Below, one piece after another: positions 2,396 through 53,689 of a stretch of DNA of 64,000 nucleotides. The translations under genes were made by a program, and so were the position numbers. The first letter of the stretch is position 1, and each line of letters starts with the position of its first letter. This stretch comes from Hermatobates lingyangjiaoensis. Its lineage: Eukaryota > Arthropoda > Insecta > Hemiptera > Hermatobatidae. The DNA is taken from assembly GCA_026182355.1 (NCBI GenBank), contig JAPFBL010000119.1, forward strand, positions 1 through 64,000. Reading direction: 5' to 3'. The notes under the pieces were generated by a model. That model had not been told where the DNA came from. It worked only from the letters and a program-made list of their open reading frames with translations, and ran no database searches.

Positions 2396-2520
2396 GATTT
2401 CACATAAACAAGTAAAGTAACAATCAATGATCAAACGACAATGTGAAATGGGACAAGAAGACTAAGATCTTTCTACCGTAATAAGCGGTCTTCGCCAGAG
2501 TAAAAAACCCAATCAGTTTC
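2396..2520 (-). mobile_element. Hammerhead-bearing repeat family A, degenerate single arm
   Basis: Matches the other family A copies (9311, 19064, 29189, 30888, 45853, 51630, 52155). On the minus strand the hammerhead-like core is present but CTGACGA is changed to CTGGCGA (2492-2498), which should abolish activity. GAA, the palindrome AGATCT and the 3' strand AGTC remain. It abuts (TA)n. Confidence 0.7.
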
Positions 2521-2615
2521 ATGTAATAGCATTCTCTCACATGTTAGGTAAATACATTCAGCCAATATGTAATGTATTTAAATCATTAGTTGTGCAATCC
2601 GTAATTGTGTGGTAT

Positions 2616-3023
2616 TTACTCATTCTGAGGTAAAATGGATAAACCAACAAAAGTCTCCACACACAAAAAAAAAGGTTTCTTTCCTCTAAATTAGTGGATC
2701 TGGCCTTCTGTATTTCAGTTAAAGGTTTTTCAAGCATACCCGAAGCCTTTGTCCCTTATCTCCTAAATTGCCTACCCCCACTCTTTCGATTTGTTTCCTA
2801 CTAGTTGTGTTCACTGGACCAACCCGTCAGTACCACATCCTTGGGTATGTCTTGAATTCTCTTAATTGAATTTTATTATTTCACTCTAATTTTTGTAACT
2901 AATTAGATATAATTTGTATTATAGTGCCTGATGATGAACACAAAGTGTTCGAAACGCGTTGAATAAAACTTCATTTGTGTGGAGACTTTTGTTGGTTTAT
3001 CCATTTTACCTCAGAATGAGTAA
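2616..3023. mobile_element. Fold-back element family F with 48-bp inverted arms
   Basis: Arms 2616-2663 and 2976-3023 are inverted copies (outer end TTTACTCATTCTGAGGTAAA, inner end TCTCCACACA). The interior carries a hammerhead-like motif just inside the right arm. A degenerate relative is at 57215-57380. There is no ORF. The inverted arms plus hammerhead suggest a Penelope-like or retrozyme-type non-autonomous element. Confidence 0.75.
2928..2965 (+). ncRNA. Hammerhead-ribozyme-like motif (family F)
   Basis: CTGATGA (2928-2934), extra T, helix II GAACAC/GTGTTC with loop AAA (2936-2950), GAA (2951-2953), palindromic helix III ACGCGT (2954-2959), cleavage base T2960. Helix I looks weak in cis (GTGC before, GAATAA after). 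The core is therefore complete, but activity may need a dimer. Confidence 0.6.
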
Positions 3024-3368
3024 TGTATTTATTTAACAAGTAAGAGCATGTTATTACATGAAATGTATTCTTAAATATGTGATTGGCGCTTATTATCGAG
3101 TATGGCATTGGGTCGTTATTTTTGATGATAGAGACCTTTAGAATAGGCAACCCACCTTACTCTTCCTGGATATAATTTTTTATAAAAAAAATTTAGCAAA
3201 CTGCAGAATGTTGATCTCCTTGGAAGGAGGGAGGGAGATAGAGAATGAAGTTTTTTACTTCGTAAATATTTCACACCTCATGCAAATAAAAGCATATTTT
3301 TTAAACCTATAAGTGAGGTTAAAATGATGTGGTAGGTCCACAAGAAAATACACATAGGCAGAAGATTG

Positions 3369-3617
3369 TGATACCATACAATGAACTTTCTACATTGGGA
3401 GTCCTAAATTTCGCCTAACTCAAGTGTATTTAGAGCAGGGATCCGATTATCTGACACTGTAGAGGGTCTGGACAAATAGTTTAACGCCATCTAGGGACGA
3501 CATGCTCAGATATTTTTCACCTTCTTTGTGAATAAATCGAGAGTCAGAGTGGGTGTAGAACCCCGTATCTACCATTCCAGAGGAGAGCATGTAAACCACG
3601 GGGCTAACCTAGTCCTT
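3369..3617 (-). mobile_element. tRNA-derived SINE, minus strand
   Basis: Read on the minus strand, a degraded tRNA-like head (A box near TTAGCCCCGTGG, B box near GGGGTTCTACACCC) lies at about 3535-3615. The common SINE body follows, with the CTCGATTTATTCAC segment, a GACGTTAA-like block and the tail block ending in TAGGACTCCCAATG. Matches copies at 28474, 30471 and 33671. Confidence 0.8.
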
Positions 3618-4254
3618 TTTTAAAACCTATTCTCAAATGTTTTTTATTTTCTGTTTATTACTTTCATTTTATTAAAAGCTGTCTTTTGAGTTCAGGTTAT
3701 TGAATTAATCTAATAACTGTAAAGAATACAATTTACAGGATTGTAAGTATGTAAATGACACGGTTCATTACTAACATTAACTACACTACTTATTTACTAA
3801 ATTGTTTCCTCAGACAGTATAGATCTGTACTACTGAATTCATTTAAATACAGATCAAAATCCTTTTAAAATGTGATATCCATTTTTATGCTGATATTAAT
3901 TAATACATACTAAACTAACAACCACTAATTACACATAATAATATAGATAATAATAATTAAATCAAACAAGGTTGAGTCAGTGACAGTTAAATTGTAACAT
4001 AATGGTGGGTAAGTATAATAAATATTTAATTTTTTTTTTTAAATATTCTTATGTCGCAATCAAACAAGTCGACATTGATACAAATACCTTTACATTTTAT
4101 CATCATACGTGACAATGGGGAATGAAAAAATTACTATTTTTATTACATGGAACATAGAATAATTTTGTAAATTCCATGATGGGATGTGGAATCATCATTG
4201 ATAATTAATTAAATTATTTAATTATTCATAAAAAGAATAGGATGTCATGATTGG

Positions 4255-4262
4255 TTCTAAGA
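4255..4262. repeat. 8-bp target-site duplication, left (TTCTAAGA)
   Basis: Identical to 4583-4590 and exactly flanks the hAT element between them. Confidence 0.95.
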
Positions 4263-4582
4263 CAGGTGTTCTCAGCCTTCCTATCCCCATTCACCCCTCT
4301 CGCCATTTCCCGCAATGCCACCCCACCCCTTCTTCTTTCCAAACAATTATATACACTTTTACAATTTTACACTGATTATGTTTATAATAGAATATAACAA
4401 ATTAAATACTAATTAACAATTATTGATGAATAAAATAAATTCAATGAGAATAGTATTTTTAATTTATAATTAAAAACCTACAAGAGCGTTCTTCACTCTG
4501 TAAACTTACTGTGGTCACAATTCACCCCCTGAAAACCTAAAATCACCTTGGAGGTGAATATCACCACCATTGAGAACCCCTG
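4263..4582. mobile_element. Non-autonomous hAT transposon (MITE), 320 bp
   Basis: Starts CAGGTGTTCTCAGCC and ends TTGAGAACCCCTG, so the terminal inverted repeats match as CAGG.GTTCTCA. Perfect 8-bp duplications TTCTAAGA flank both sides, the hallmark of hAT transposition. The interior is noncoding. The 62- and 118-codon minus-strand frames crossing its right end are chance. Confidence 0.93.
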
Positions 4583-4590
4583 TTCTAAGA
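4583..4590. repeat. 8-bp target-site duplication, right (TTCTAAGA)
   Basis: Right copy of the hAT target duplication. Confidence 0.95.
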
Positions 4591-5991
4591 GAAAGGAGAT
4601 CAGAAATATTAAATCGGACACAAAGGAGAGGACAGTATGATGAATCTCTAGGATAACTTGACTTATGGGAAAACTTCTCAAGGAATTTGTTATTGACGGA
4701 TTGAAGTAAATGTTGATAATGATTGTAATTTGGATTCAAAACAGGTGAGTCATATTCTAAAATTAGAAGAACGAAAGATTTATAAAGAGTAACGAAAGTA
4801 ATGGGACTCATTGAAGTCATACGAATGTCTCGTAATGATATCGAGCATGCTACGGTATTCTCAATAAACAATATGACTGTTGAACAGTTAATTTAGAGTC
4901 AGAAATCAATCCTAAATCTTTCAAAGAGTCCTATTTGAATATATGAGTTATAACTGAAATGAGGAGGAGGGTTCCTAAGAAAGGTTATGCACCAGTGAAT
5001 TCTATTCATCTCAAGGGCCCTGGATACTCTGATTAATTACTGATGACAAGTGTTTGATAAATAAAATAACAAAGGAAAGTTATACAAAGAGAATAATAAT
5101 GCATGATAAGCAATCACCTACTCTCGGTGGTAAAACATTGAAATGTTTTTAGAGATACTACTTGCACTTAATTTACTTTTAATTGATAATACTGAAGAGA
5201 GAAGAGCGAAGGTGAACAGACAATGGATTAATTGCAAGTCAGACAGGATGGAGAGGCACTGATAATCACTTCAGACATTTGACGGAGCCAGTTATTTGAA
5301 AAGCGTTTATGTTTGAAAATCAGTGTTCTTAATTAAGCAAATGAACTTCCTCATTCCTAGTATGGGCTTGCTTCAACAAAAAACACTTTTCACGAATGTT
5401 AACTATCTCCTCACTAATTAAATTCACATTCCATTATGAATACAAACATTTTTATATTTCAGTTCATTTTTTTTGTTTCAAGATTTTCCCTTGTTTTTTT
5501 TTATTATTCATAATGAAACACAATCGGTGAATAAATATATGAACGAATTAACCTAAGTTCTCTCTTTCTATACTCTTTTTCATATTAAACTGTTCCTAAT
5601 AAAAAAAAAATTACATAACTCAATTACAAGTTTCTCATATAATTACTTTTTTACACAATTAACATATAAAAATTCTTTTCTTAATTTTTTCTTCCCATAA
5701 AACCTAATATATGCTTAGAAAGAGATCATTCAAACATTTATTACAAAGTAACTTCAAATAAGAGTTATTATTGTTAACATCATAAACAGAAATAGAGGTG
5801 ATTAAAATCATATATGTAATCAATTTTAATAGCATTAGTTATTCTGCAATTTAACTGAATAAATATAAAGCTAATGATTAAATAAAATAAAATTTTATTA
5901 AAAAAATTTATTTAGAATATATGGTATAAATTTAGAAAATCATACTTTTAAACAGTTTTTACTTATGAAGTAGCAGTTTATAATTTCAAGA
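4591..5991. other. AT-rich noncoding stretch
   Basis: No gene, RNA or clear repeat recognised; only poly-A/T runs and short chance frames. Confidence 0.5.
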
Positions 5992-6052
5992 ATGTTCCGT
6001 TTTAATGCTTTTTTGTACACTTCGTTTATTTTGGCTCTCTCGCTGCTGAAAG
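5992..6052 (+). CDS. Candidate first coding exon with a signal peptide
   Basis: ATG at 5992 opens 20 codons, MFRFNAFLYTSFILALSLLK, then a split G and a donor GTAAAG at 6053. The peptide has a basic start and a hydrophobic run of about 12 residues, like a secretory signal, and the phase-1 intron after it is typical of secreted-protein genes. No downstream exon was recognised, so the gene is unknown. Given the AT-rich background, chance is a real possibility. Confidence 0.3.
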
Positions 6053-6212
6053 GTAAAGTTGTTGCACTCACTTGATCTACTTTATGAATACTTACTCTAG
6101 TTTAGATCGGATCACAAGTGTCACTTGCTATTTTAGCTGAGCTGAATTAGCAATACAAAAAAATGAACCGAAGTTATTTCAAACGACTACACTTATAGCC
6201 AACAACTTATTT

Positions 6213-6480
6213 GGGAGGCCACTTTAGCTCAGTGGTTAACATACTTGCCTCTGAACTGGTAGGTCCGGGGTTCAATACCCACCTGGCCCTCGATTTATTC
6301 ACGAGGAAGGTAGATAAAACTGAGCACGTCGTCCCTCGGAGAGGACTTTAAACTTGTTTTGACTTTATATTTCTTCGTTAGCCTCTCAGCCATTTCTACC
6401 AAAATAAAATCAGGCCGACCAGTTTAACGTGCTGCTGTGACAGAGTGTCACGTGTTCATTCAAATTGGACAGTTGTTATT
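6213..6480 (+). mobile_element. tRNA-derived SINE with L-type middle region
   Basis: Pol III A box TTAGCTCAGTGGTTAAC (6224-6240) and B box GGTTCAATACC (about 6269-6279) form the tRNA-like head, followed by CTCGATTTATTCACG. From about 6375 the body (AGCCTCTCAGCC, then TTTAACGTGCT) resembles the reverse complement of the 3' part of the long element at 38028-39124 and 60101-60957, linking the two families. Confidence 0.8.
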
Positions 6481-6489
6481 AAAACCCAC

Positions 6490-6684
6490 GGACTATTATT
6501 TCTTGTAAAAAATCTTTAATGTAATACTTAGTTTTTCTGTTTCAAAATTTTGTACTTCTACCTATGAAAAAGGTTTTAAATAAAAACCGAAACGTTTGGA
6601 ATGAGAGTTTAATTTGAACCTGAAGAACTAACCGAGTCCTGATAAACTTTAGTTTTGTTTCTATTACACGGTCGATACTATTAT

Positions 6685-6690
<6 letters not shown>
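6490..6690 (+). mobile_element. Repeat family C (hammerhead-like relic), plus orientation
   Basis: Contains CCTATGAAAAAGGTTTTAAA, AAAACC, GAAACGTTTGG at about 6561-6604. The same layout recurs at 9500-9720, 18555-18930, 25290-25600 and 35740-35905. It resembles a hammerhead with a deleted or altered CTGANGA box, GAA and palindromic ACGT; in better copies TGCC/GGCA can form helix I. It ends at (TA)n. Confidence 0.65.

Positions 6691-6721
<31 letters not shown>
6691..6721. repeat. (TA)n microsatellite between elements C and G
   Basis: About 15 TA units, directly between two hammerhead-type repeats. Confidence 0.9.
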
Positions 6722-6722
<1 letters not shown>

Positions 6723-6915
6723 TAAAAATAAGAAACGGTCCACAAGAATGACGAAGAACGTCATTCGCGCTCCGTTCTTCGACGTGGAGAGATCTCTCTC
6801 ACTTCGTCCTCTCTTCTAGTCTAGTCCTGATGACGAACAACAGTTCGAAATATTGAATTCTGTAAGTGTTCTCTTTATTCTTTTTTCTGTGTCGTGCTTT
6901 GTGCAATTTAAAGTT
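6722..6915 (+). mobile_element. Hammerhead-bearing repeat family G
   Basis: Related to 29010-29150 (inverted) and the 52361-52464 hairpin. After the hammerhead core it has TGTAAGTGTTCTC, also seen downstream of family B/E cores, which suggests common descent. Confidence 0.65.
6835..6867 (+). ncRNA. Hammerhead-ribozyme-like motif (family G)
   Basis: CTGATGA (6837-6843), extra C, helix II GAAC/GTTC with loop AACA, GAA (6857-6859), palindromic ATAT (6860-6863), T, then GAATTC. Helix I is only about 2 bp (TC/GA). Confidence 0.55.
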
Positions 6916-9310: not shown

Positions 9311-9443
9311 CATATTCGTCAGAGTCAAAAATCCAGCTGGAATATGTTGGGTTTTGATTCTGACGAAGACCGCTTGTTACGGTTGAAAGATTTTAGTATT
9401 GTTTTCCCATTTCATATTGTGGTTTGATTTTACATATGATATG

Positions 9444-9720: not shown

Positions 9721-11182
9721 ATATAGTCGAATTTGATATATACATCAAATTAAGGTAATAGATTTTTTTATTCTAATCATGGGTTTATTTATAGTGAAAT
9801 TGACTGTATACCACTGCAGATTTTAATATAATATTTTTTATTAATACAATATAAAAATATAATTGTTTGGAGGAATATTTAAAAGAAATTTAACAACGTG
9901 TTCGAATACAGTCTCAAATGAAACTGAAAAAAAAATTGGCAAACTACCAGAACAAATTTGTAACTCAGTAGACTACATCTCAAAAGCCGTTAGTTCCATT
10001 AAATGGTTTAATTAAAAATATATTTCAATGACTCCATTCAATTGCTTGGCTAATAATAGATTTCCATAAATTTTACTGATTTTTCTTATTAGGATGTTGT
10101 TCTTCTCAAGAGCAATAACTACGTGCTATATTTTTATTACTGTTTTAATACTTCTGGTTATATAAAAAATCCGTTGTGGGACACCACATAGTTTACATTT
10201 ACCTAATTATAATTTGTAGTTCATTTGTTAGAATAGTACTAGTTGATGCTTTTGGAACCTATTACTATCCTTCTATTTACTTTCTTTGATTTCTCTGCCT
10301 CTCAGTTTAATCAATTTAGATCCAATTCAGTATAGTATTTATATTTTACTATATTGTGTTTAATATCCGTATCAATGGAAACAAATTGATTTAAATGAAC
10401 TGTTTTTTTTTTTAATTTTGACCATCACGAACATTTCTGTGAACATTATGCCAATGTATATTAAATGTTAACTAAAAAAAAAAAACCAGAATCACTGGGA
10501 TTTTAAACAAAATCATGTTAGATTTTTAAAAAATTGAAAAATTCCGATTTTTTCATATAAAGTACACGTAGAAAAGTTAAAATTTTGGAACTGAGCTTCC
10601 TGTTCAGTCTCAAGGACAGCAGAAGCTTCAATATGAACATTGGTGATTACAGCTCTTTTTGTTTTTGATATATCCTGCGCAAACACGCATACACTCTCAC
10701 AAAAATTTGTAAAACTAATTTCATTGGACTCAGAGGACCTCAAAACATGAATCTTGTTAAAATCTTGATTTCTAAATGTTGACCCGAATGCAATACTTTC
10801 ATTTTTCTATATTTCTCATACATTTATGAATAAATGTACAGTCATTTACATGAACTGATTACCGTAAGTTTGATAATACGTTAACCCATAGAAAGTTGAG
10901 TGATTTTGCTGCATTCTCATCTGGAACAACACATTTGGACTGAAATAACTTTTTTCGTGGCGATATTTTGTTTTTGTTGTTTTTTATGCAGATCATAACC
11001 ATGCATCTTCTAAAATATTAACGAACATTGAAAATTAGTCGGTATTTGTATCAGGAAGTTAGTTAAAATGATGGACGTCTTAAGGTTATTTCAATCACTT
11101 TGTTTTTGTAAAAAATATTAAACTTTTGATCGTTTACGAAATATATACAGATATCAATATTATCATTATTACCAATATTTTT
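9721..11182. other. AT-rich noncoding stretch with K-like fragment
   Basis: 10735-10790 resembles the end of family K (GGACCTCAAAACATG, then TTAAAATCTTGA). Nothing else recognised; the 76-codon minus-strand frame at 10513 lies in this repeat. Confidence 0.45.
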
Positions 11183-11291
11183 ACTTTACTATAAGTAAAG
11201 TATAGTTTTCGTGAAAAAATTCTATCTCGAGATTTTAACGGAATTAGATGCTTTGAGGTCCCAGAAGTCGTTTATGAAGTTTTTTTCGATG

Positions 11292-11322
<31 letters not shown>

Positions 11323-13115
11323 GGTGCGTTGGTGGGTGGTGAGTATGTTAGCATTGCTTGTTACCACGCTACGGTCCAGAATCTTTGATGGATCAAGTTG
11401 ATATTTTACACAAAAATGGGTCTCATAGTGTAGATAAGCCCCATTGTTTAGGAGCAAGTATGCATGATGGAAAGCCACTTTTTATACTAAAAACCTGTTT
11501 TTACACTACATTTTTTTTATCCTAAACTACTAAATATACATATTTGAATAGTTGATATCATCTTTGAGGTTACAAATGCAACAAGCGAAAAATATATTCA
11601 TATTTTTAAAACAATACGAAATAGTTGTTTCAATAAAATGTAAAAATTTTATTTTATAATTCAATCTGAAAGCTTGTGAGAGCGTTACAAGACATACCGT
11701 TTGACGGATCAAAATGAAACTACACCTAAAAGTAGAATTTTATGTGGAAAATGAGTTAAGATATTTTTTTCTCAAAATTACATTCACCACAGGGGAGTTA
11801 CAGTACATTTTCTGTTTTCAAAAATATTTGCTTGAAGCTAAACTGCTAATTAAAAAACCATGATATTTTGTTCAAAACAGAAAATTAACAATTTATGAAA
11901 AAAATCATGAAATTTCAATCACGGCAAAGAGCAATAACGCTATAAAAACTGATTGTTTATCCTGGACTAACGGATCACCTGCTATACTTGTTGAATTTTT
12001 GATATTTTTTTACATAGTTTACATTGACTTAGACATTTTTTGATTGAATCCACTGAAATCAAATTGACGTTTTTGATGGTCAAATTTAAATAATTCATTA
12101 ACTTATATGAGATTTAAGAGGAATAATATTTTCACATGTATAAAATCACTGCCAATAAACATAAATTTCTGTTGCTTTCCATGGTATGATGGATTTGTCG
12201 CACAAAATTCTCTAATCAATCTGTATATTGTACTAATGAACAAAACTATTTCAGATGTAAATTATTTTGAGTTTGTGAATCAGTACCTTTGGGCAAAATC
12301 AAAGTGTGAGGAATGGACGCTTTCCTTAAGAAAGAGGAGATATGTTTGTTGACAAATATTCGGTTTATTCACTTTTCTAGTATAATTGTTCATATCTATT
12401 ATTTTTTAAAAATTTGAAGCTTCCAGCTATAAAAGTTTTAAGTTATACTGAATAGCCGGCTTTTACTTTGATTTGAGTATGTAAAACTGGCTAATTACTA
12501 ATATTTTACATTCACAGCAATCTTATAACAGAGTACAGAGTACACACAGGAATAAGATAACACTTGCTCAGAGCAAATTGGTATACATGATTTTTAACGA
12601 AGGAAAGGAAAAGTGATTTTTATTAAGTACTAGGAAGCCATAAAATTCCCAGTATAATCATTCTACATAGGACCAAAAATGTAAAACATAATTCAAAATT
12701 GAAAACATTCTTTAAAGAATAATAAATTATTATCCTACACCTTAAATTAAAAATTATCTTAAAACAACATTTTTTCTTCGATGTTTCTGACATTTTTCAG
12801 ACAAAATAGGAACATTTTCAAGTTTTAAATGGGAAGATTTGTCTTAAATATTCAACGAAATCTACACGTTTTCTTTTCAAAAATGTTATTACTGCTGTAG
12901 TTATACTAATGATGTTATATGCATCAGTCGTGTGATATACAAAAATAAATATATATATTAATAAGTTGATCAATCAGTATTTGTACTACCTCCAGGAATG
13001 AGTGACTAATAAAGACTTCACATTTAGACATTTGTGTGATATTTAAATAGAACATTAAATGTTATATACCCAACAAGTATGACTTTATGATTACTTATAG
13101 TAAAATTGAGTGAAG
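11183..13115 (-). repeat. Dispersed repeat family K, longest copy
   Basis: Inverted relative to 1-1290. One end, TTTACTTTACTATAAGTAAA, lies at about 11183; the other, ACTTATAGTAAAATTGAGTG, at about 13093-13113. Both ends share the palindrome TTACTATAAGTAA, suggesting true termini about 1.9 kb apart. A (GT)n tract at 11295-11323 is in the position of the (CCCA)n of copy 1. No transposase frame is seen. Confidence 0.7.
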
Positions 13116-15135: not shown

Positions 15136-15713
15136 CCTGCCCAGTCTTGCAATTTGAAATGATACTTACAAATCTAATTTTGAAAGAGTTTTTCTCTCAA
15201 CTAAAACATGCGTGATATTAACGTCAATAGCCTTCTACTTTATTTGCAGGTTGCTTTTGGAGTATGTGACCCCTACACTAACCATGACAAATCCCTAAAA
15301 ATTAAAGTTTCCGAAGAAAATAGTTTAATCCTGTGTCTGATTCATATGCCTTCACCATCAACGACGTTGGCTTACCTGTGTGCTTGATATGTGGCGAAAA
15401 ATTATCGGACAACAAAAACTGTAACGTTAAATAACATTCCCAAACCAAGCATTTAGCATTCGCTGAAAAATACCTAACTGAAGAGGATAGCCATTTCAGC
15501 GGAGAGTTAAACAGAGCAAAAAACTTACTAAAGTAAAAAAAATCCAGAATTCGAAGATTCAAGTTGTTTATATAACGGACTTACTGACCAGACATGGTAT
15601 CCCTTAATATAACATTGATTCACTGATAAAACGAAATACGATCCAAACTGGACACAATACGAGTTCGAGATTAACAAAGAGCAACACACAAAGTAGGGAA
15701 ACACACTTACAGA

Positions 15714-15744
15714 CTCAAATTTTCGGGTAATCCGTCTTCAGGAG
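15714..15744 (-). ncRNA. Hammerhead-ribozyme-like motif, left arm (family B)
   Basis: Mirror of 16154-16184: CTGAAGA, extra C, helix II GG/CC with loop ATTAC, GAA, palindromic AATT, T, helix I CTC/GAG. Confidence 0.5.
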
Positions 15745-16153
15745 AAAAGAGAATGGGAGACCAAGCACGTTGTAGGCGCAACGGCAAGTAACCAACCATT
15801 TTATTTTATTTTTCTAAATTCTTATTCTTAACTAGTTTCCCATACTTACCCTTTTATTTACTAAAACAACCAATGCAAGTTTTTTGTATTGTATTTATTT
15901 TTATTTATTTATTTATTTTTTCTTCTTTTCTCTATCATTATTTTTGTTTCTTATAGTTTGTTTTTATCTTATATTGTTTATAATTTTTCACCTACTTATA
16001 GTTTTACCCAACCAGTACTGCTTATCTGAGCTTCTGTTTATATCTTCTCCTAATTTTATACTTTAAGACCGGGTACGGTTGACAGCACTGGCGGTTGCCG
16101 GGTTGGTTACTTGCCGTTGCGCCTACAACGTGCTTGGTCTCCCATTCTCTTTT

Positions 16154-16184
16154 CTCCTGAAGACGGATTACCCGAAAATTTGAG
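16154..16184 (+). ncRNA. Hammerhead-ribozyme-like motif, right arm (family B)
   Basis: CTC then CTGAAGA (16157-16163), C, GG-ATTAC-CC, GAA (16174-16176), AATT (16177-16180), cleavage T16181, GAG. Helix II is only 2 bp, so activity is less certain than for families A and E. Confidence 0.5.
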
Positions 16185-16454
16185 TCTGTAAGTGTGTTTC
16201 CCTACTTTGTGTATTGCTCTTTGTTAATCTCGAACTCGTTAATATAACATTGTTCACATTGGATCCATACTGGTGAAACTTAATTCTAACCACCATGACT
16301 ACAGGAGAGAAATGGCCAATTGAACTGTATAAATTAATATCATCTGATCTCTTACCTTATTTTAAACACTCTATGGTAAAATTTCATAGGACATCTTTTA
16401 GTTAATGGACATATTTAAATATAATTTTATTTTAATTGCCGATATTTTATAGAA

Positions 16455-18930: not shown

Positions 18931-19063
18931 TTACATATAGTATGTAATATTACTGTCATATATATATATATATTTTATTATTTTTTATATTATTTTCATA
19001 TGTCTTAAGTATATATATATATATTATATATATATATATATATCTGAATATATAACAATATTT

Positions 19064-19260
19064 CACATAAACTCTTGAAATAACAATCAATGATCAAACC
19101 AAATATCAAATGGGGAAAAAAGACTTAAGGTCTTCCAACCGTAACAAGCGTCTTCGTCAGGGTCAAAACCCAACTGAAACTAGATGCAGAAACATCATGG
19201 TGAGGGTTTGAGAGGAGTGGGAGGGAAGAGTTGTTTTTAAAAAGATTGTAAAGTGCAGGA
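19064..19260 (-). mobile_element. Hammerhead-bearing repeat family A, single arm
   Basis: The minus strand reads CCTGACGA, AGACGCTTGTTACGGTT, then GGAAGACCTTAAGTC: CTGACGA is intact (19154-19160) but GAA and the palindrome are altered. Extends through GATGCAGAAACATCATG, shared with 31030. Confidence 0.7.
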
Positions 19261-19264
19261 AGGG

Positions 19265-19740
19265 GCAAAAGTACCTTTTAAATTTTATTAAAAAAATAAT
19301 ATTTCCCGTTGTTTTAAAAATCTGAGGATATTTTTATATTATTGCCCTTTATGGCTTTAAAGATAATTCCCAAATATCAAGAATCTAGAATCAGTAGTTT
19401 ATGAGAAAAAAAAATTAGTCTAAAAACAGGTTTTTGACAAAAAGTGACTTTCCCATCATGCGTAATAATTGCTCCCAAACCATAGGAATCATCCACACTA
19501 TGGGGTCCATTTTTGTGAAAAATATCAACTTGATCCATCAAAGAGTCTGGACCGTAGCGTGGTAACAAACTTTGGGTACATACTCGCTCACCCACACCAC
19601 TCACCTATACACACACAGAAATCATCGAAAAAACTTCATAAAACGACTTCTTGGACTTCAAAACATGTAATTCCGTCAAAATCTCGAGATCGAATTTTTT
19701 CACAATCACTATACTTTACTTTACTTATAGTGAAGTAATG
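19265..19740 (+). repeat. Dispersed repeat family K, end fragment
   Basis: Matches 800-1290, ending CACTATACTTTACTTTACTT then ATAGTGAAGTAA. Confidence 0.8.
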
Positions 19741-20009: not shown

Positions 20010-20845
20010 TACAGTCAGCAATATTTCATGGTTCATATTAATATTTCACACAAAAATCAGCCTCATAGTGTAGATGTGACCTATTGTTTGCGAGAAATTA
20101 TGCATAAAGGGATAGTCACTTTGTTTGCCAAAATGTGTTTTTGTGTAATTTTTTTCGCAAAATATCATTGTTCTTTAATGAGCCGTTTAGCGTCAAAAAA
20201 ACATTTCCTAAAAATAGTAAATGTATCATAACGCTCCTTTGTTTGATGTAATTTTGAAAAAAAATGCCTCAACTCTTCCTCCGCATAATTCTTTATTTTT
20301 CATTCAAAAGTCTTACCATTTGATGGTCCAATTTCATTTTGACTCATCAAATGGTAAGACTTGCATTCTCCTCAAAAGGTTTCAGATTGAATCATCAGTC
20401 AAAATTTTTATATTTTATTGAAAGAAAAAAAATATTTTCAGTTGTTTTAAAAATATGAGAATTGTTTCAGTTATTGATTTGTCACTTCCATGATAATGCC
20501 AAAATTTTAAGACTCTATAGTTAGTAGTATAGGAGAAAAAAATTGTTATCTAAAAATCATTTTGGCAAAAAAGTGACTTTCTCATCAGGCATAATTGCTC
20601 CCAAATAATATGACACATCCACAATATGAAACCCATTTTTTAGTAAAAATTACTTTCATCCATCAAAGATTCTGGACTGCAGCGTCCTTACAAACTTTTT
20701 GATACCCACCCACCCACACATAGGCATTATTAAAAAAAAACGTTATAAAAGATCATTGGAGACCTTAAAATATGTAGATTCATCAAAATTTTGAGATCGA
20801 ATTTTTTCATGATCACTATACTTTACTTGTAGTAAAGTAACATTC
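20010..20845 (+). repeat. Dispersed repeat family K, second end fragment
   Basis: Matches about 540-1290, ending CTTTACTTGTAGTAAAGTAA. It contains an extra perfect 18-bp inverted repeat (20308-20325 with 20345-20362, AAGTCTTACCATTTGATG) absent from other copies. Confidence 0.75.
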
Positions 20846-24984: not shown

Positions 24985-25265
24985 GAACGGACTTTTAAAG
25001 TTCAATATAGATAAAGATATATAGTTAAATGAAAACACACTCACAGTCTCTAATTTTCTGTTTGAACTGTCATCAGGAGAGAAACGAGAGGATCCTAAGC
25101 ACACTGGTATAAATTTCTTTTTAGTAATTATTATAACACTTTTGTGGATGTATAATATTTACTTTGACTCCCTATCTTTATTATCCTGATGATGGTTTAA
25201 GCAAAAAATTAGACACTGTAACTGTGTATTTTTCATTTATCTATGTATGTTAGATTATAATGAAC
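24985..25265. mobile_element. Hammerhead-bearing fold-back element family E, diverged copy
   Basis: The left arm (minus) has CTGATGA at 25070-25076, GAA, palindrome AATT and TCTC/GAGA helix I, but helix II is imperfect. The right arm (plus, 25186) has CTGATGATGGTTTAAGC but GAA changed to AAA. Outer ends resemble other E copies (GATCCGGAACGGAC). Confidence 0.65.
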
Positions 25266-29009: not shown

Positions 29010-29150
29010 GAAAGGTGATCGTGTTTTAACAACACACAGTTATTCCCCGAGAAAACTTACTGGATCGATATTTCGAACTGAAGTTCATCGTCAGGAAGAG
29101 AGTAGAAGAGAAGAAGAAGAGGTACATCCGTTCACGTGTACCAGTAGAAT
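29010..29150 (-). mobile_element. Hammerhead-bearing repeat family G, minus orientation
   Basis: Read on the minus strand it parallels 6722-6915: CTTCCTGACGATGAAC, CAGTTCGAAATATCG, then CAGTAAGTTTTCTC. Abuts (TA)n at 29155. Confidence 0.65.
29063..29096 (-). ncRNA. Hammerhead-ribozyme-like motif (family G)
   Basis: CTGACGA (29088-29094), extra T, helix II GAAC/GTTC with loop TTCA, GAA (29072-29074), ATAT, cleavage base C, GATCC. Helix I short. Confidence 0.55.
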
Positions 29151-29185: not shown

Positions 29186-29188
29186 AAA

Positions 29189-29370
29189 GATTTCACATAA
29201 ACACGTGAAACAACAATCAATGATCAAACCACAATAAGAAATGGGAAAACAAGACTAAGATCTTTCAACCGTAACAAGCGGTCTTCGTCAGAGTCAAAAA
29301 CCGCTTGTTACGGTTGAAAGATCTTAGTCTTGTTTTCCCATTTCTTATTGTGGTTTGATCATTGATATAT
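29189..29370. mobile_element. Family A palindrome with intact hammerhead on left arm
   Basis: The left arm (to about 29280) and right arm (29301-29366) are inverted copies of about 60 bp. The right arm has lost CTGACGA at the centre. Flanked by (TA)n on both sides (29155-29182 and 29365-29382). The repeat lies inside CENPS intron 4. Confidence 0.8.
29253..29295 (-). ncRNA. Hammerhead-ribozyme-like motif (family A), intact core
   Basis: GACT, CTGACGA, extra A, helix II GACCG/CGGTT, GAA, palindromic AGATCT, cleavage base T, AGTC. Helix I GACT/AGTC pairs perfectly. All invariant hammerhead core positions are present, apart from the extra base before helix II. Confidence 0.65.
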
Positions 29371-30742: not shown

Positions 30743-30887
30743 AACTTAATCTATAACAAAACTCAATGTTGCCTCTGAGCCTGCTATTCCTTCTCAGAGC
30801 TAGGAGTAGCTTAAATATGAGATTTAGCGATTATAACTCCTTTGGTTTTAAGAGATATTCTCTTCACGCACATACAGACATATACAA

Positions 30888-31145
30888 AGATATCACAATA
30901 AACACGTGAAGTAACAATCACTGATCAAACCACAATAAGAAATGAAAAAAAAAGACTAAGATCTTTCAATTGGCGGTCTTCCTATCTTTCAAATACCACT
31001 CTTCCCTCCCACTCCTTTTAAACCCCTCATCATGATGTTTCTGCATCTTGTGTTTCAGTTAGGTTTTTGACTCTGACGAAAACCACTTGATACGGTTGAA
31101 AGATCTTAGTTTTGTTTTCCATTTCTTATTGTGGTTTGATCATAC
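30888..31145. mobile_element. Family A fold-back element, right arm with intact hammerhead
   Basis: The left arm (30888-30975, minus) has a decayed core. The right arm (31030-31145, plus) is better preserved. The interior ACCACTCTTCCCTCCCACTC is shared with 19200-19240. Confidence 0.75.
31069..31111 (+). ncRNA. Hammerhead-ribozyme-like motif (family A)
   Basis: GACT, CTGACGA (31073-31079), A, helix II AACC/CGGTT-type with loop, GAA, AGATCT, T, AGTT. One helix I mismatch against the family. Confidence 0.55.
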
Positions 31146-31164
31146 AAACATATATACGTACATA

Positions 31165-39138: not shown

Positions 39139-39340
39139 TAGAGAATGAATATTAGTATGAGTACGTAGCCATTATAACTGATATTATTATAACAGTAACT
39201 ATTACATGAGTTTGAGAATAAGTATCAGTAAACAGAACTTATAACAGAAAGCACAGCTATACTGTGTTCTGAATATTAGTTTTTTACTAAATACAACTTA
39301 TATCCGACAGCACAATTAAAATATGAGCACATATACCACT
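39139..39340. repeat. Degenerate minisatellite, middle part
   Basis: Continuation of the 37690 array, with GAGTTTGAGAATAAGTATCA and ACAACTTATATCCGACAGCA. Confidence 0.6.
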
Positions 39341-39537
39341 AATATTAAACATATACCATCTTACCTCGTACACTGCTGTTGTAGCTCTCGGACCGGTTTC
39401 GGGTGTCACCCATCTTTAACAAGAACTGCCTAAAAGATGGAATTTCAGTTCTTGTTGAAGATGGGTGACACCCGAAACCGGTCCGAGAGCTACAACAGCA
39501 GTGTACGAGGTAAGACGTATATTATATGTTTAATATT
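39341..39537. mobile_element. Fold-back element family I, 85-bp arms
   Basis: Arms 39341-39425 and 39449-39537, nearly perfect apart from a small insertion in the right arm. Contains hammerhead-like cores on both arms. Inserted in the minisatellite. Only copy seen in the window. Confidence 0.8.
39449..39489 (+). ncRNA. Hammerhead-like motif (family I), C3 changed
   Basis: TTCTTG, then TTGAAGA in place of CTGANGA (39455-39461), extra T, helix II GGGT/ACCC with loop GAC, GAA (39474-39476), palindromic ACCGGT, C, CGAGAG. Helix I TTCTTG/CGAGAG pairs over 6 bp including G-U. The C3 change should block cleavage. Confidence 0.5.
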
Positions 39538-39549
39538 ACTAATACTAAC

Positions 39550-41659: not shown

Positions 41660-42030
41660 TGGAAACAGTCTTCGTTGAGAATAATGTTAAAGTTTTGAAA
41701 GAGAAGTAATAATTGTAATGTTATGGTCACAGCTAGATAAGTGATAGTTCTGGAATATCCTTATGTGAATCCTTTAACAACACAATAACCATTTAAATTT
41801 TATAGCCAGATAAGGGATGATTCTGGAATAATCCGAAGTGTATACATTTATAACGGAATAACCATTTGGATGTTACAGCTAGATAAGGCATGATTCTGGG
41901 AAAATACGACGTGAATACATTTATAACGGAATAATCATTTGAATGTTACTGCTAGATAAGGGATGATTCTAGAATAATCCGATATGATCACTTTTATAAC
42001 ACAATAACCATTCAAATATTATAGCCAGTG
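41660..42030. repeat. 73-bp tandem repeat, about five units
   Basis: The anchor AGC(T/C)AGATAAG recurs at 41731, 41804, 41877, 41950 and (as AGCCAGTG) 42023, exactly 73 bp apart. The unit also contains GATTCTGGAATAATCC and ATAACGGAATAACCATTTG. Confidence 0.9.

Positions 42031-45812: not shown

Positions 45813-45848
<36 letters not shown>
45813..45848. repeat. (TA)n microsatellite
   Basis: About 17 units directly before a family A element. Confidence 0.9.
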
Positions 45849-45850
<2 letters not shown>

Positions 45851-45852
45851 TA

Positions 45853-46045
45853 TAAAACCACAATATGAAATGGGAAAACAAGACTGAGATCTTTCAACTG
45901 TAACAAGCGGTCTTCGTCAGAGTCAAAAACTATTTCATATTGTGGTTTGATCAGTTGGGTTTTTGAATCTGACGAAGACCGCTTGTTACGGTTGAGATCT
46001 TAGCCTTTTTTTCCCATTTCATATTGTGGTTTGATAATTGATTAT
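45853..46045. mobile_element. Family A fold-back element
   Basis: Left arm minus, right arm plus, both ending in the CATATTGTGGTTTGAT block. The left core is intact. The right core (CTGACGA at 45969) has lost two bases of GAAA. A third copy of the outer block (TTTCATATTGTGGTTTGATC) sits between the arms. Confidence 0.8.
45882..45924 (-). ncRNA. Hammerhead-ribozyme-like motif (family A)
   Basis: GACT, CTGACGA, A, helix II GACCG/CAGTT (one C-A mismatch), GAA, AGATCT, cleavage base C, AGTC. Confidence 0.58.
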
Positions 46046-46092
46046 TTAGATATGTATATACGAATGTTTTCCTTATCTCGACCACATATAAT

Positions 46093-46660
46093 GGGTGTCT
46101 CAGAATGTTTTTCGTTTTTAGATAGATGTTAAATAAAAAACAAAATATCAATTAAATCTCGTTTTATTTAATGTTTATTTGAAGAGCAATTCTTGAAGTT
46201 TATTTATGAAAAACAACCGTTTGCAAATGCGTTCACACTCAGAGAACCTGGAGCTAAAATTTTCAATAACTCGCTGGAGCATCGCTCTTGAAATAGAGTT
46301 GATTTCTTCAGTGATTCTTTACTTCAAAACATTCAGGTTGAGTGGCAAACTTTGCTTACCTATGAAGCTACCTAAAAAGCGAAGTTTACAATCCATTGCC
46401 ACTCAACCTGAATGTATTGAAGTAAAGAATCACTGAAGAAATCAACTCTATTCCAAGAGCCGATGCTTCAGCGAGTTATTGAAAGTTTTAGCTCCAGGTT
46501 AACTGAGTGTGAACAAATGAATGGTACGATTAGCAAATGGTTGTTTTTCGTAAATAAACTTCAAGAATTGCTCTTTAAATTACCATTAAATAAAACGAGA
46601 TTTAATTGATATTTTGTTTTTTATCTAACATTTAAAAACGAAAAACATTCTGAGACACCC
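46093..46660. mobile_element. Fold-back MITE H, about 250-bp inverted arms
   Basis: Ends GGGTGTCTCAGAATGTTTTT and its inverse. Arms reach the inner block GGTTGAGTGGC/GCCACTCAACC near 46336 and 46408, leaving a spacer of about 50 nt. A second partial terminus (ACATTCTGAGACACCA) follows at 46674. No hammerhead core, no ORF. A DNA-transposon-like fold-back is likely. Confidence 0.8.
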
Positions 46661-46701
46661 TTGGATTCAGAGACATTCTGAGACACCATTCATTTATTTA
46701 A

Positions 46702-46811
46702 CACTATTTTTCTTTTTTATCGAGGTTTTGTCTAGCTTCAATAATTCAACAACGGCTTAAAGGTGCTGAATTATTGAAGCTAGACGAAACCTCGATAAAA
46801 AGAAAAATAGT
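46702..46811. repeat. Inverted repeat, about 46-bp arms
   Basis: ACTATTTTTCTTTTTTATCG, then AGGTTTTGTCTAGCTTCAAT faces its inverse across an 18-nt loop (46749-46766). Followed by (TA)n. Confidence 0.8.
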
Positions 46812-46841
<30 letters not shown>

Positions 46842-46844: not shown

Positions 46845-46985
46845 CCACTCAACGGTTTCCCTGCCGTTGTGTTTCCGGCGTGCTTGGTCGCCCATTCTCT
46901 TTTCTCCTCAAGACGAATCATCCGAAAATTTGAGTTTGTAAGTGTGTCTCTTTCTCTGTGTGTTGCTTTTCTTCATATTTTGAAC
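46842..46985 (+). mobile_element. Family B single arm
   Basis: GTGCTTGGTCGCCCATTCTC then CTCAAGA (G5 changed), helix II region, GAA, AATT and TTTGTAAGTGTG. Inactive by sequence. Flanked by (TA)n. Confidence 0.7.
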
Positions 46986-46999: not shown

Positions 47000-47285
47000 G
47001 TTGTAAACAGGAAAACGATCCAAAAAGACACAAACGTTTCACAGTAAATCACAGACACACAACAAAGAAATGAACACACTTACTGTTTCTAATTTTCGGT
47101 TGAACCATCATCAGGAGGGTTGAGATAGGGAGACTAAGCGCACTTGCTTTATTGGTTCTCCAACCGTCGCTTCGCAAGTGCGCTTTGTGTCCCTATCTCA
47201 ACTCTCCTTATGACAGTTCAACCGAAAATTAGAGACAGTAATTGTGTTTGTTTTTTTGCTGTGTGTCTGTGACTTACTGTATATA
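47000..47285. mobile_element. Family E fold-back element
   Basis: The left arm (minus) and right arm (plus) share CAAGTGCGCTT, CCCTATCTCAAC and CACAGACACACA. The left core is intact, the right one has CTTATGA. Flanked by TATATA. Confidence 0.78.
47086..47118 (-). ncRNA. Hammerhead-ribozyme-like motif (family E)
   Basis: CTGATGA (C3 at 47114), extra T, helix II GGT/ACC with loop TCA, GAA, AATT, cleavage base A, GAAACAG. Helix I only 2 bp. Confidence 0.5.
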
Positions 47286-47296
47286 TATATATATAT

Positions 47297-48370
47297 ACAC
47301 AAGGGGTTCTTGAGGATTTTGGTCATAAAACATACAACTCCTGATTATAAGCCGACGTTTCACCAAAAGTTGTTTGGCGTTTTCAAGGCTAAAAAAAATT
47401 TATTAACGACATAAGTAAAGCAAGATAAATACATCACCGGACACCACTCAACAGAAAACAAACAACACAAACAAAAATTTTGTAACAAGAGAACCACAAA
47501 GGACCATAAAATACCTAGTGTTATTATTATTATTATTGTTATTATTATTATTTAAAAACTGACATTTGTTGTTTAAACCTAATTAATGGTTATTAATTAT
47601 TCAGAACATCAAAAAACCCGATATTCAAACAGCCAAACAACACACAGACAGTAACGAACACAGAAAATTACAAAACAATGAAAAAAAGAGAGTCAAAAGT
47701 TATAAGAAATTAAGGGAAAAAAATCTGATATATCAAGTCTTAGTTTAATTTATTCCAATCTCCTTCAATAGTTTCTATTAAACTGTTTTTCATGTCGACA
47801 TTAGGGGAGTAGCTTGTTTTCCGTTTTTAGGGTTATGTAACCTTCTGTTTATGTGTATCTGTTATGATGCAGCCAGTCATAAGCATGGACCGGTAAATGG
47901 TGTTTCTTCTAAGTCAAGGTAATAATATTTGTAAGGTTTTTGTTTTTTGTTTTTTTCCCTTAATTTCATATAACTTTTGACTCTCTTTTTTTCATTGTTT
48001 TGTAATTTTCTGTGTTTGTTACTGTCTGTGTGTTGTTTGGCTGTTTTAATATCCGGTTTTTTGATGTTCTGAATAATTAATAACCATTAATTAGGTTTAA
48101 ACAACAAATGTCGGTTTTTAAATAATAATAATAATAACAATAATAATAATAATAACACTAGGTATTTTATGGTCCTTTGTGGTTCTCTTGTTACAAAATT
48201 TTTGTTTGTTTTCTGTTGAGTGGTGTCCGGTGATGTATTTATCTTGCTTTACTTATGTCGTTAATAAATTGTTTTTTAGCCTTAAAAATGCCAAATAACT
48301 TTTGGCGAAACGTCGGCTTATAATCAGGAGTTGTATGTTAATGACCAAAATCCTCAAGAATCCCTTGTGT
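47297..48370. mobile_element. Large fold-back element D, about 425-bp arms
   Basis: Arms 47297-47724 and 47949-48370 are near-perfect inverted copies including an internal (ATT)n (47519-47552 and 48121-48158). The spacer is 224 nt. A hammerhead-like relic lies near each outer end. No ORF. (TA)n on both sides. Confidence 0.88.
48278..48318 (+). ncRNA. Hammerhead-like relic (family D)
   Basis: AGCC, TTAAAAA in place of CTGANGA, helix II TGCCAAA/TTTGGCG-like, GAA, ACGT, C, GGCT. Helix I AGCC/GGCT pairs. The left-arm mirror at about 47352-47390 has TTGAAAA. Not expected to cleave. Confidence 0.45.
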
Positions 48371-50659: not shown

Positions 50660-50890
50660 TCCAGTAAGGTATAAATATTGGAAGGAGATAAGTAGTTTTT
50701 ATTTTCAGTACAAGGGGGCATGTGAAAGCACCTGTTTAGCTTGAATCCCGACATGTAAAGTAAATTAGCAAATAAAGTGGTAAAAGGCCTAGATGCCTGT
50801 CCACTAATTTAGCATACATCTTACTGTGCATGGCTAGCTGACCCATGACCTTGAGCATTGGACCTTATATCCTTTAAACTTCCAAGTCTT
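50660..50890 (-). repeat. Repeat N, copy 1 (minus)
   Basis: AAGTGGTAAAAGGCCTAGAT, GCCTGTCCACTAATTT and TGCATGGCTAGCTGACCC are the inverse of 54108-54310. Confidence 0.75.
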
Positions 50891-51584
50891 GAAGAGAGAA
50901 GAAAAACTATCAAATATGCTCATTTTTACAATTTTTTTGCTTAAATATTTAATCATTAGGTATCTAAATATAAGATTTTTATTGACCACTTGTTACATTC
51001 ATTTTTACCTCTTTGTCTCATACTATATTGTTAAAAAATTTTGTTAGCTACAAACTATTCCAAAGTTTTGTTGTATACATTGTTAGGAAACCTAATCGTA
51101 CTATACATTCACAAATATGCCATTATTAAGCTTAAAACATATTTCATAAATTCATTGTTTAGACAAAACACGATACATTAACATTGTTTTAAATATTTAT
51201 CATTCCCTGGAAAAAAAATTATGAAGAATATTTATTCAAATGTTAATTAATATAATTTAATTTGGGTATTCAAGAGAAAAGTTTCATTAATGAATTGACA
51301 GCCTTTAGAAATGATTCTTTTGTTAAGCACATTGCTTGTTACCAAGATTGCATCTCTCTTTTAAAGTTCACAATTGAGTATTGACGAAAAGAGTTTTAGA
51401 ACTAAGTTGAAAACTGATATAGGAAACTTTTTTCATCTCAATGTTGAAAAAGAGTGGGAATATAAATCCTTATCTGAGAAACAAAAGATTTTATAGGATC
51501 AAGAGTCAGATACAACTCTGAGAGCTAAGCAAAAGAAATTAGCTCTCTGATTTTTTTTTGAAGCAGGCATATTCTGTTATTCTC
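50891..51584. other. AT-rich noncoding stretch
   Basis: Nothing recognised. Confidence 0.4.
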
Positions 51585-51634
51585 TCTCACTTTCACTTTC
51601 TCTCTCACTCTCTCTCCCTATATATATATATATG
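51585..51634. repeat. (CT)n and (TA)n microsatellites
   Basis: CTCTCTCACTTTCACTTTCT then CTCTCTCTCCC and TATATATATATATA. Confidence 0.85.
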
Positions 51635-51845
51635 ATGAAATCACAATATGAAATGGGAAAACAAGACTAAGATCTTTCAACCGTAACAAGCGGTCTTCGT
51701 CAGAGTCAAAAACCGTCAGAGCTTCAGTTGGGTTTTTGACTGAAGGCCGCTTGTTACGGTTAAAGATCTTAGTTTTATTTTCCCATTTCATATTGTGGTT
51801 TGATCATTGATTGTTATTTCACGTGTTTATGTGTGAAATAACATG
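51635..51845. mobile_element. Family A fold-back element with intact left hammerhead
   Basis: Left arm minus (51635-51710), right arm plus (51725-51845). The right core is broken (GACTGAAGGCCGC). Confidence 0.8.
51665..51707 (-). ncRNA. Hammerhead-ribozyme-like motif (family A), intact core
   Basis: Same sequence as 29253-29295: GACT, CTGACGA, A, GACCG/CGGTT, GAA, AGATCT, T, AGTC. Confidence 0.65.
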
Positions 51846-51869
51846 TATATATCTTTATATATACATACA

Positions 51870-52080
51870 CTTTTTGTTGGAAATACGATCCGAAACGGAC
51901 AATGCAGTTTTCATGTAGAAAAAGAAACATAGAGAAATCAAAAGCACACACTTACAGTCTCTAATTTTCGGTTTGTACCGTCTTCAGGAGAGAGGGAAAC
52001 CAAGTGCACTAGTTCAGAGACGGTTGGGTCTGCAACCGTCTCTAAACCAGTGCACTGGATCGAATCCAAAAAACTGATCA
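51870..52080. mobile_element. Family E element with palindromic centre
   Basis: The left arm (minus) matches 52506-52690. The centre has the hairpin CAGTGCACTGG-like/CCAAGTGCACTAG and AGAGACGGTT/AACCGTCTCT. The right arm is truncated before its core. Confidence 0.75.
51958..51991 (-). ncRNA. Hammerhead-ribozyme-like motif (family E), intact core
   Basis: TCTC, CTGAAGA (C3 at 51987), extra C, helix II GGT/ACC with loop ACAA, GAA, AATT, cleavage base A, GAGA. Helix I TCTC/GAGA 4 bp. Confidence 0.58.
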
Positions 52081-52114
52081 GGAAAAAAGTAGGCAGAAAA
52101 TTTAATCTCTCTCT

Positions 52115-52116
<2 letters not shown>

Positions 52117-52154
<38 letters not shown>
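52117..52154. repeat. (CA)n and (TA)n
   Basis: About 9 CA units followed by about 10 TA units. Confidence 0.9.
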
Positions 52155-52290
52155 AAGATTTCACATAAACACGTGAAACAACAATCAATGATCAAACCAC
52201 AATAAGAAATGGGAAAACAAGACTAAGATCTTTCAACCAGTTGGGTTTTTGACTCTGACGAAGACCGCTTGTTACGGTTGAAAGATCTTA
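52155..52290. mobile_element. Family A element, truncated fold-back
   Basis: The left arm is cut at TTTCAACC. The right arm has CTGACGA (52255), helix II, GAA and AGATCT but loses AGTC, running into a CA/TA tract. Confidence 0.75.
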
Positions 52291-52360
52291 CATACACACA
52301 CACATATATATATATATATATACTTCGAATAAAATGAAAGGTCCGTGTGGACAATAAACA

Positions 52361-52464
52361 CTTTAACACAGAGAAAAGAACACAGAAAGGCACTATAGAA
52401 CTCACTTCGATATTTCGAAGTGAGTTCTGTAGTGCCTTTCTGTGTTCTTTTCTCTGTGTTAAAG
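52361..52464. mobile_element. Near-perfect 50-bp-arm hairpin (family G-like)
   Basis: Arms 52361-52410 and 52415-52464 with loop TATT, about one mismatch. The centre reads TTCGATATTTCGAA, the GAAATATCGA core of family G, so the junction lies inside the hammerhead. Confidence 0.85.
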
Positions 52465-52599
52465 TAAATATATATATATATATAATATATATATATATAA
52501 CATATACACTTTTTTTCGTTGGAAATACGATCCAAAAAGGACAAATATAGTTCAATATAAACAAAGAAACATAGAGAAATCAGAAGAACACACTTACAG

Positions 52600-52633
52600 T
52601 CTCTAATTTTCGGTTTGAACCGTCTTCAGGAGA
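52600..52633 (-). ncRNA. Hammerhead-ribozyme-like motif, left arm (family E)
   Basis: Exact mirror of 53099-53132. Confidence 0.6.
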
Positions 52634-53098
52634 GATAAGAGAGGGAAACCAAGCGCACTGGATCAGAGACGGTTGGAGACCAACAGTGTTGCCGCATGCG
52701 CGCCCGTTCACAGAAAATAAGGTAGACAGGAATCAATTTATAATTAATTTATAATTTATAATTACATTAAATTAATGGTATATGAAAACAATAAATATAT
52801 AAAAAAGAAAAAAATGAAAAAATAAGGGAAATTGATACAGAGAAATTGATACCATAGCTTAGTCAGTACTTTTGTTTATGTATCAATTTCTCTGTATCAA
52901 TTTCCCTTATTTTTTCAATTTTTTCTTTTTTATATATTTATTGTTTTCATATACCATTAATTTAATGTAATTATAAATTATAAATTAATTATAAATTGAT
53001 TCCTGTCTACCTTATTTTCTGTGAACGGGCGCGCATGCGGCAACACTGTTGGTCTCCAACCGTCTCTGATCCAGTGCGCTTGGTTTCCCTCTCTTATC

Positions 53099-53132
53099 TC
53101 TCCTGAAGACGGTTCAAACCGAAAATTAGAGA
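53099..53132 (+). ncRNA. Hammerhead-ribozyme-like motif, right arm (family E)
   Basis: TCTC, CTGAAGA (53103-53109), extra C, helix II GGTT/AACC, GAA (53121-53123), AATT, cleavage base A53128, GAGA. Followed by CTGTAAGTGTGTTC. Confidence 0.6.
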
Positions 53133-53689
53133 CTGTAAGTGTGTTCTTCTGATTTCTCTATGTTTCTTTGTTTATATATATACATATATATATATGATGA
53201 AAGCAGGATCTCTCTTACACATTTTGTTAAATTTAGTCATTAAAAGTCCAAGAAAAATGTTATAGTGAATCATTAGTTTCTCTTCCCTTTTTGTAGTTCT
53301 TACAAGTTTATCTTATATTTTCTGTAAAGTGTTCAATTATGGATAGAGTGGATGTTAACTTCAAACGTATCATTACTTTCAAATAATAAGAAGATCTCGG
53401 AAAATATACTTTCATTATGCATATTTTATTAATAAAGCAATAAATCAGTTAATGATATTAAGGAGAGGGACTTGATCTTAGAAGTTTGTGTCGAGGTTTG
53501 TTGCATCAAATATCCCATTTTCCCTTTTAACTTTCACACGTCAAATTTTGACGTCAATGGTTAATTGGTTGCTTAAACGTTAATTACATGACTGTTAATT
53601 TGCTATTTGTATTTGCTACTGACTTGTTGTTGCAGTTTTGTGGTAGTTTACTTGAGGTGTTTAGTGATTTAGTTTCAGCGTGAGGTGTG

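Follow-up and report, generated by a model that had tools for sequence, protein, structure and literature searches.

Head-to-head insertions with hammerhead-like cores in Hermatobates lingyangjiaoensis probably derive from the terminal sequence of Penelope-like elements

The first 64,000 nucleotides of contig JAPFBL010000119.1 of the hemipteran Hermatobates lingyangjiaoensis (assembly GCA_026182355.1; this whole stretch is hereafter the window) carry several families of short fold-back elements, many of which contain a core resembling that of the hammerhead ribozyme. In form, the fold-backs resemble inverted pairs of terminal sequence of Penelope-like elements (PLEs), joined head to head, and we consider it probable that the elements are short non-coding insertions taken from the terminal part of PLEs (the pseudo-long terminal repeat, pLTR, or 5′ part) and made into fold-backs by priming on both target strands, with PLE enzymes presumably supplied in trans. 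The kinship to dimer-type Penelope hammerheads suggested in a preliminary description of this DNA fits, and the window would represent a real occurrence that mostly fits a known kind of element.

The layout of the core (CTGANGA, one further base, helix II, GAA, a palindrome and H; positions are given in hammerhead numbering) recurs, as the preliminary description had held, and does so far above chance. A strict scan, which required exact CTGANGA, a stem of at least 3 bp, GAA, a palindrome of at least 4 nt starting with A and a next base other than G, returned 13 matches within about 2.4-53.2 kb of the window, where 300 order-2 shuffles averaged 0.16 and never exceeded 2; an earlier 20 order-2 shuffles and the reversed sequence gave none. 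Twelve of these cores are credible: five in family A (29257-29291, 45886-45920 and 51669-51703 on the minus strand; 31073-31107 and 52255-52289 on the plus strand), four in family B (47090-47114, 51962-51987 and 52604-52629, minus; 53103-53128, plus), two in family G (G1 at 6827-6854, plus; G2 at 29067-29094, minus) and one in family F (2928-2960, plus, with a helix II of 6 bp). As the copies in a family cannot be treated as independent, the occurrences are best counted as four families. The remaining match, at 46257-46311 (minus strand), is probably a chance occurrence, given that its ‘helix II’ spans 40 nt, that it sits within an unrelated palindrome and that it is the sole strict match lacking an extra base after A9; in the other 12 of the 13, which are all of the credible cores, this extra base is needed for a helix II of at least 3 bp.

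The families differ in the palindrome that would form helix III (AGATCT in A, AATT in B, ACGCGT in F, ATAT in G and ACCGGT in I) and in how much of the core they retain. Helix I reaches at least 3 bp in only 7 of the 13 strict matches (A4L, A5R, A7L, A8L, B1L, B1R and B2L, named by left or right arm), so that the ‘at least 13 complete cores’ of the preliminary description were too many; it is 2 bp in G1, G2 and B4L, and 1 bp in F, the chance-like match and A9R, where helix I is lost with the end of the arm. The full type I dimeric layout (CUGANGA, helix II, GAA, helix III, H17 and helix I) is found in 7 of the 13, in families A and B only. The companion claim that six or more families share the core goes too far, as it holds in its strict form only for A, B, F and G. 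Family I departs from it by one core mismatch (39455-39483, plus strand; TTGAAGA for CTGAAGA, with U at C3), has a helix I of 8 bp and continues into GAGGTAAGA, and C/D cannot be counted as complete: all six aligned copies have C(T/C)(A/G)TGA where CTGANGA is expected (CCATGA and CTATGA in the C2/C3 pair), and GAAACGT is kept in three of the six. Judged by these alignments, C/D is an incomplete core without the 5′ core strand. A GTAAGT- or GTAAGA-like sequence, reminiscent of a 5′ splice donor, lies 6-26 nt downstream of the core overall (about 6-7 nt in the B and G copies inspected, 26 nt in I), with examples at 53103 (plus) and in other B arms, 6827 (plus), 29094 (minus) and 39455 (plus); in family B it precedes the tail described below, and the G1 core is followed by CTGTAAGTGTT.

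The hammerhead models of Rfam, proposed earlier as the check on these cores, matched nothing in the window, nor either of two cores submitted singly. This silence weighs little against the cores, because well-formed control hammerheads go unmatched too. As a control we used at least 120 viral-contig loci with the canonical hammerhead pattern, in which, among the loci listed, all three helices formed in 124 of 138 core matches; 12 of the listed loci (at least eight with complete helices) gave no gathering match, and a textbook three-helix phage hammerhead, submitted singly, reached only 23 bits where the threshold is 34. Since a canonical phage hammerhead falls below threshold, Rfam is a test of low power here and was dropped as an arbiter. 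A further 32 viral-contig loci have an extra T after A9, and 15 of them, several near-identical, form all three helices (L002, L008-L014, L016, L018, L019, L021, L023, L025 and L026); an extra base at this position is for that reason compatible with well-formed hammerheads. Rfam again gave no gathering match for 14 of the 32 (10 with all three helices), and no hammerhead match at E 10 for one complete extra-base locus submitted singly. These loci share the order CTGATGA-T-helix II-GAA with the window cores, but their helix III is looped and their helix I full, so that, unlike the window cores, they could act as monomers. An extra core nucleotide was reportedly also described in a viroid hammerhead by De la Pena and Flores in 2001. 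Lunse, Weinberg and Breaker are said to have described, in 2017, dimer-acting small hammerhead variants of PLEs, and by analogy the minimal helix III of the window cores would lead one to expect action as dimers; the cores here have palindromes of 4 or 6 nt depending on family and, in the 12 credible cases, the extra base after A9, features that may set them apart from those variants.

The arrangement of the arms points to PLEs. Thirteen inverted pairs were recognised, all of them in head-to-head arrangement, their 3′ sides facing out. Six belong to family A: A2 (9315-9430; left arm without its 3′ half, right arm short-ended; mutated core palindrome), A4 (29188-29366; arms of 70 nt, 99% identical, left with tail and right short, (AT)n on both sides), A5 (30880-31146; left with tail, right short), A7 (45845-46046; both arms short-ended), A8 (51632-51856; left short, right with tail) and A9 (52150-52290; left with tail). 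Four belong to family B: B1 (52517-53177; arms of 298 nt, 100%, spacer 27 nt), B3 (24997-25250; degenerate cores), B4 (47004-47278; right arm short at (TA)n) and B5 (15618-16238; arms of 139 nt, 99%, spacer 303 nt, degenerate cores), each with a tail on the left arm and none on the right. The others are C2/C3 (25268-25594), F (2517-3063; arms 2616-2663 and 2976-3023, 100%, inner ends unequal, core in the right copy only) and I (39340-39538; arms of 70 nt, 99%, spacer 17 nt). Single arms also occur, namely A1 (2396-2512, minus; with tail, degenerate core CTGGCGA, 3′ end adjoining (TA)16 at 2361-2392), A3 (19025-19173, minus; with tail, 5′ extended, degenerate core), B2 (51880-52056, minus; with tail and, on its 5′ side, a palindrome at 52003-52056) and B8 (46890-46975, plus; short-ended at (AT)n, degenerate core). 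The fold-back form had been singled out as the unusual part, but canonical PLEs show the same form: as described in a 2013 report, A. vaga Penelope elements have an inverted head-to-head pLTR in which a 31-bp tail is optional on one copy (PMC3846280).

A comparable tail is present here. When aligned in the sense direction, family A arms mostly end at two points, a short one after GGTTTGATCATTGAT and a long one after an extra piece that holds TTTCACGTGTTTATGTGAAA; family B arms likewise have two end points, the long form adding GTCC-N5-GGATCGTATTTCC, and the extra tail on one arm amounts to about 30 nt. Five of the 13 pairs were set aside: A2 and A9, in each of which one end is aberrant, and F, I and C2/C3, in which no tail is definable. 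Of the eight pairs classed by eye at both ends, seven combine one long and one short end (A4, A5, A8, B1, B3, B4 and B5). Discordance in at least seven of eight would have a probability of about 0.035 if ends were drawn evenly, a value that is suggestive only, because the classes were assigned by inspection once the pattern was already apparent. We also folded eight tail stretches: a hairpin formed in two of three family A copies with weak z scores (-1.4 and -1.8; the third +0.7), while of five family B stretches three were cut too short for the stem and the other two gave -0.3 and +0.4. By eye, the B tails have a GTCC/GGA stem of 3-4 bp whose inner pair varies. Given these weak and mixed scores, a conserved stem-loop at the start of reverse transcription is not established.

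The targets are informative as well. Of the 36 outer ends, positioned by eye, 18 have an alternating AT run of at least 10 within 40 bp, compared with 2.5% of random positions. The whole B5 pair is enclosed by a 14-bp direct repeat, TTAATATAACATTG (15604-15617 and 16239-16252, plus strand), which occurs nowhere else in the window, and for this reason both B5 arms were most likely inserted as one event; published PLEs likewise have short target repeats, reported as 8-10 bp (PMC3846280). B5 is the only clear case: most other pairs stand in simple repeats or without a clear target repeat, and in A4, A9, B4 and others the simple repeats make a target repeat indistinguishable. In A9 both sides are flanked by (CA)n followed by (TA)n in the same, direct order.

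Two single cases bear on the RNA template. The right arm of A9 breaks off at GAAAGATCTT|A, no more than one base from the predicted cleavage site, and then enters the repeat, which is suggestive of a copy that may have been made from hammerhead-cleaved RNA. Chance or a later deletion could also give such an end in a single case, and the 2024 Anolis study found no RNA reads with a start or end at the cleavage site (PMC11167929). The centre of A7 contains a head-to-tail join of ATTTCATATTGTGGTTTGATC to AGTTGGGTTTTTGA, in which the short-end side of one copy meets the 5′ start found in other A copies; this fits a template jump that restarted at the short end site.

The mechanism that we propose draws on published accounts. 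A purified PLE protein of Anolis cuts both DNA strands, extends both and prefers AT-rich DNA; its reverse transcription begins at two adjacent internal sites, which define the tail; insertion is equally good with a dead ribozyme, and the ribozyme cut only after protein was added (PMC11167929). Minimal PLE hammerheads retain little of helix III and possibly work as dimers (PMC6155905, PMC7761336). By extension, the better-kept units here would carry minimal type I hammerheads in which a second copy is required to form the palindromic helix III, and the 3′ region after the hammerhead would end at one of two discrete points. A PLE endonuclease would cut both strands of an AT-rich target and the reverse transcriptase (RT) would extend both 3′ ends, each start being internal to the RNA, with the outcome of two opposed, 5′-truncated cDNAs joined head to head and RT start sites outward. 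Cleavage of multimeric RNA is a possible role of the hammerhead, which is probably dispensable for insertion. Like PLEs with pLTRs (Pen2a and Pen3a of A. vaga, PAc of Anolis), the window elements combine inverted head-to-head terminal copies and a tail on one of them with AT-rich targets, a hammerhead near the RT start and palindromes on the 5′ side; unlike full PLEs, they are terminal pieces only, lack an identified open reading frame (ORF; 89 of 312 filtered ORFs scanned) and fall into several families within 50 kb. More tentatively, and with a good deal less confidence than in a PLE origin, we suggest that the fold-backs record symmetric two-strand priming by PLEs, one strand starting at the inner and the other at the outer RT start site, that at least one insertion (A9R) was templated by hammerhead-cleaved RNA, and that C/D spread after loss of the catalytic strand. 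Searches on related terms returned no title or abstract opening stating that inverted pairs arise from two-strand priming.

A number of observations weigh against a PLE origin through two-strand priming. B8 and the left arm of B4, like the right arm of A8 and the left arm of B2, are tail-to-tail neighbours across AT repeats, which we read as separate insertions. A7 is short at both ends, its right end being unclear; the ends of A2 and A9R are aberrant, no class could be assigned to F, I or C2/C3, ends and classes alike were set by inspection, and the other 18 of the 36 outer ends lie away from AT runs. The arms of the youngest pairs are 99-100% identical, as self-priming also predicts. The Anolis study saw no difference in RT start sites between top and bottom strands (PMC11167929), and a separate start site for each strand is therefore not demonstrated in that system. 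In models of 10 cores as paired RNA molecules, with helices I and III formed between the two, the hammerhead fold had -17.6 kcal/mol in both A4L and A8L, -31.1 in I, -11.7 in F, -6.0 in B1R and -6.6 in B2L, but +0.6 in G1, +1.0 in G2, +0.8 in B5R and +3.4 in B4L. The dimer hammerhead outscored two separate monomer folds in family I only and, because the best co-fold was another structure in 10 of 10, the energies lend no support outside family I; since tertiary contacts lie outside the model, dimer folding neither supports nor excludes activity. Finally, among the 89 of 312 filtered ORFs scanned against Pfam there was no RT or GIY-YIG domain, a scope from which an RT remnant could have escaped; because of this, the PLE assignment is based on the ends, the geometry, the targets and the ribozyme rather than on protein.

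The strongest competitor to two-strand priming is the self-priming proposed by Arkhipova, in which a PLE cDNA or antisense template snaps back and copies itself before the hairpin integrates; we judge it improbable, though well within reason. Palindromes at the inverted junctions of A. vaga PLEs were explained in this way in the 2013 report (PMC3846280), and in the window the near-identical arms of young pairs, their short spacers (A4, 11 nt; I, 17 nt; B1, 27 nt) and a short shared ACC, seen by eye at the join in the centre of A4, would all follow from it. Self-priming alone leaves the two classes of outer end unexplained, as it does the direct rather than inverted target repeat of B5 and the left arm of A9, which reaches past the 3′ end of the right arm; the 303-nt spacer of B5 also speaks against it. 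Other comparisons are neutral: one diagnostic site, read by eye in the alignment, agrees between arms in four of four pairs (A4, A5, A7 and A8) and fits either model. Arm-against-arm identity is uninformative as a test of self-priming versus two templates: arms are mutual closest relatives only in A4, B1, B4 and B5, the others looking star-like.

Two further explanations concern what the elements are, and both seem to us very unlikely. Animal non-LTR retrozymes, small non-autonomous elements spreading as circular RNAs with type I hammerheads, resemble the window elements in being small and non-coding with a type I hammerhead; their small size, low GC, type I layout and, in some, a requirement for dimers have been described, as has their organisation in direct tandem repeats of about 150-400 nt (PMC7229834, PMC7761336). 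The copies here are instead inverted or single, the sole head-to-tail join is the fragment in A7, and a tandem-repeat scan of the window found no direct tandem array of the elements, so that the retrozyme alternative raised in the preliminary description fits less well than PLEs. Slighter still is the case for chance mimicry of cores by the palindromes of unrelated miniature inverted-repeat transposable elements (MITEs) or fold-back DNA transposons. Some palindromes in the window, such as that at 46093-46660, do lack a credible core, and chance is retained as the explanation of the match at 46257-46311; for the core set as a whole it is rejected (13 matches against a mean of 0.16 in shuffles), and solo arms with the same ends, unequal arms and the long and short ends also argue against it.

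The surroundings read like animal intergenic DNA. The window is AT-rich (24-42% GC across 2-kb bins), contains no ORF of 150 amino acids or more starting with ATG, GTG or TTG, and gave no tRNA in a scan with the bacterial code; its longest stop-to-stop frame, of 154 amino acids, returned no homologue when searched. The Pfam scan of 89 ORFs gave a CENP-S match (E 2e-7) in one, absent from 10 ORFs rechecked, and three further weak matches (E 0.0015-0.0084), with no mobile-element domains, and a pattern search of IMG/VR for families A, B and C gave 0 matches. Fold-backs without a credible hammerhead core form separate palindromes at 46093-46660, 46692-46822, 47297-48370 and 52360-52465: the first is a MITE-like 568-bp palindrome with long terminal inverted repeats starting GGGTGTCTCAGAATG, the third an inverted repeat of 1.07 kb (94% across some 430 nt of each arm) with TTA/AAT runs, and the last a hairpin between A9 and B1 (arms 51 nt, 98%; loop 4 nt) with sub-threshold microRNA matches in Rfam. 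A dispersed repeat of about 1 kb occurs at 303-1287 and, in inverted orientation, at 11178-12130 (81% identity), with more diverged copies at 19276-19738 and 20151-20840, and a 73-bp unit is repeated four times in tandem at 41729-42025 (78% matches).

For PLEs more generally, these insertions bear on the origin of the inverted copies, on which the 2013 proposal of self-priming and the 2024 demonstration of extension on both strands in Anolis point different ways. A genome with many small inverted pairs, whose ends can be read separately, could allow the models to be told apart by counting. If starts at the inner and outer sites on opposite strands prove true, they would account for the tail that has long been known from one of the inverted copies. 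The end of A9R and the C/D family are relevant to the question of whether insertion involves the ribozyme.

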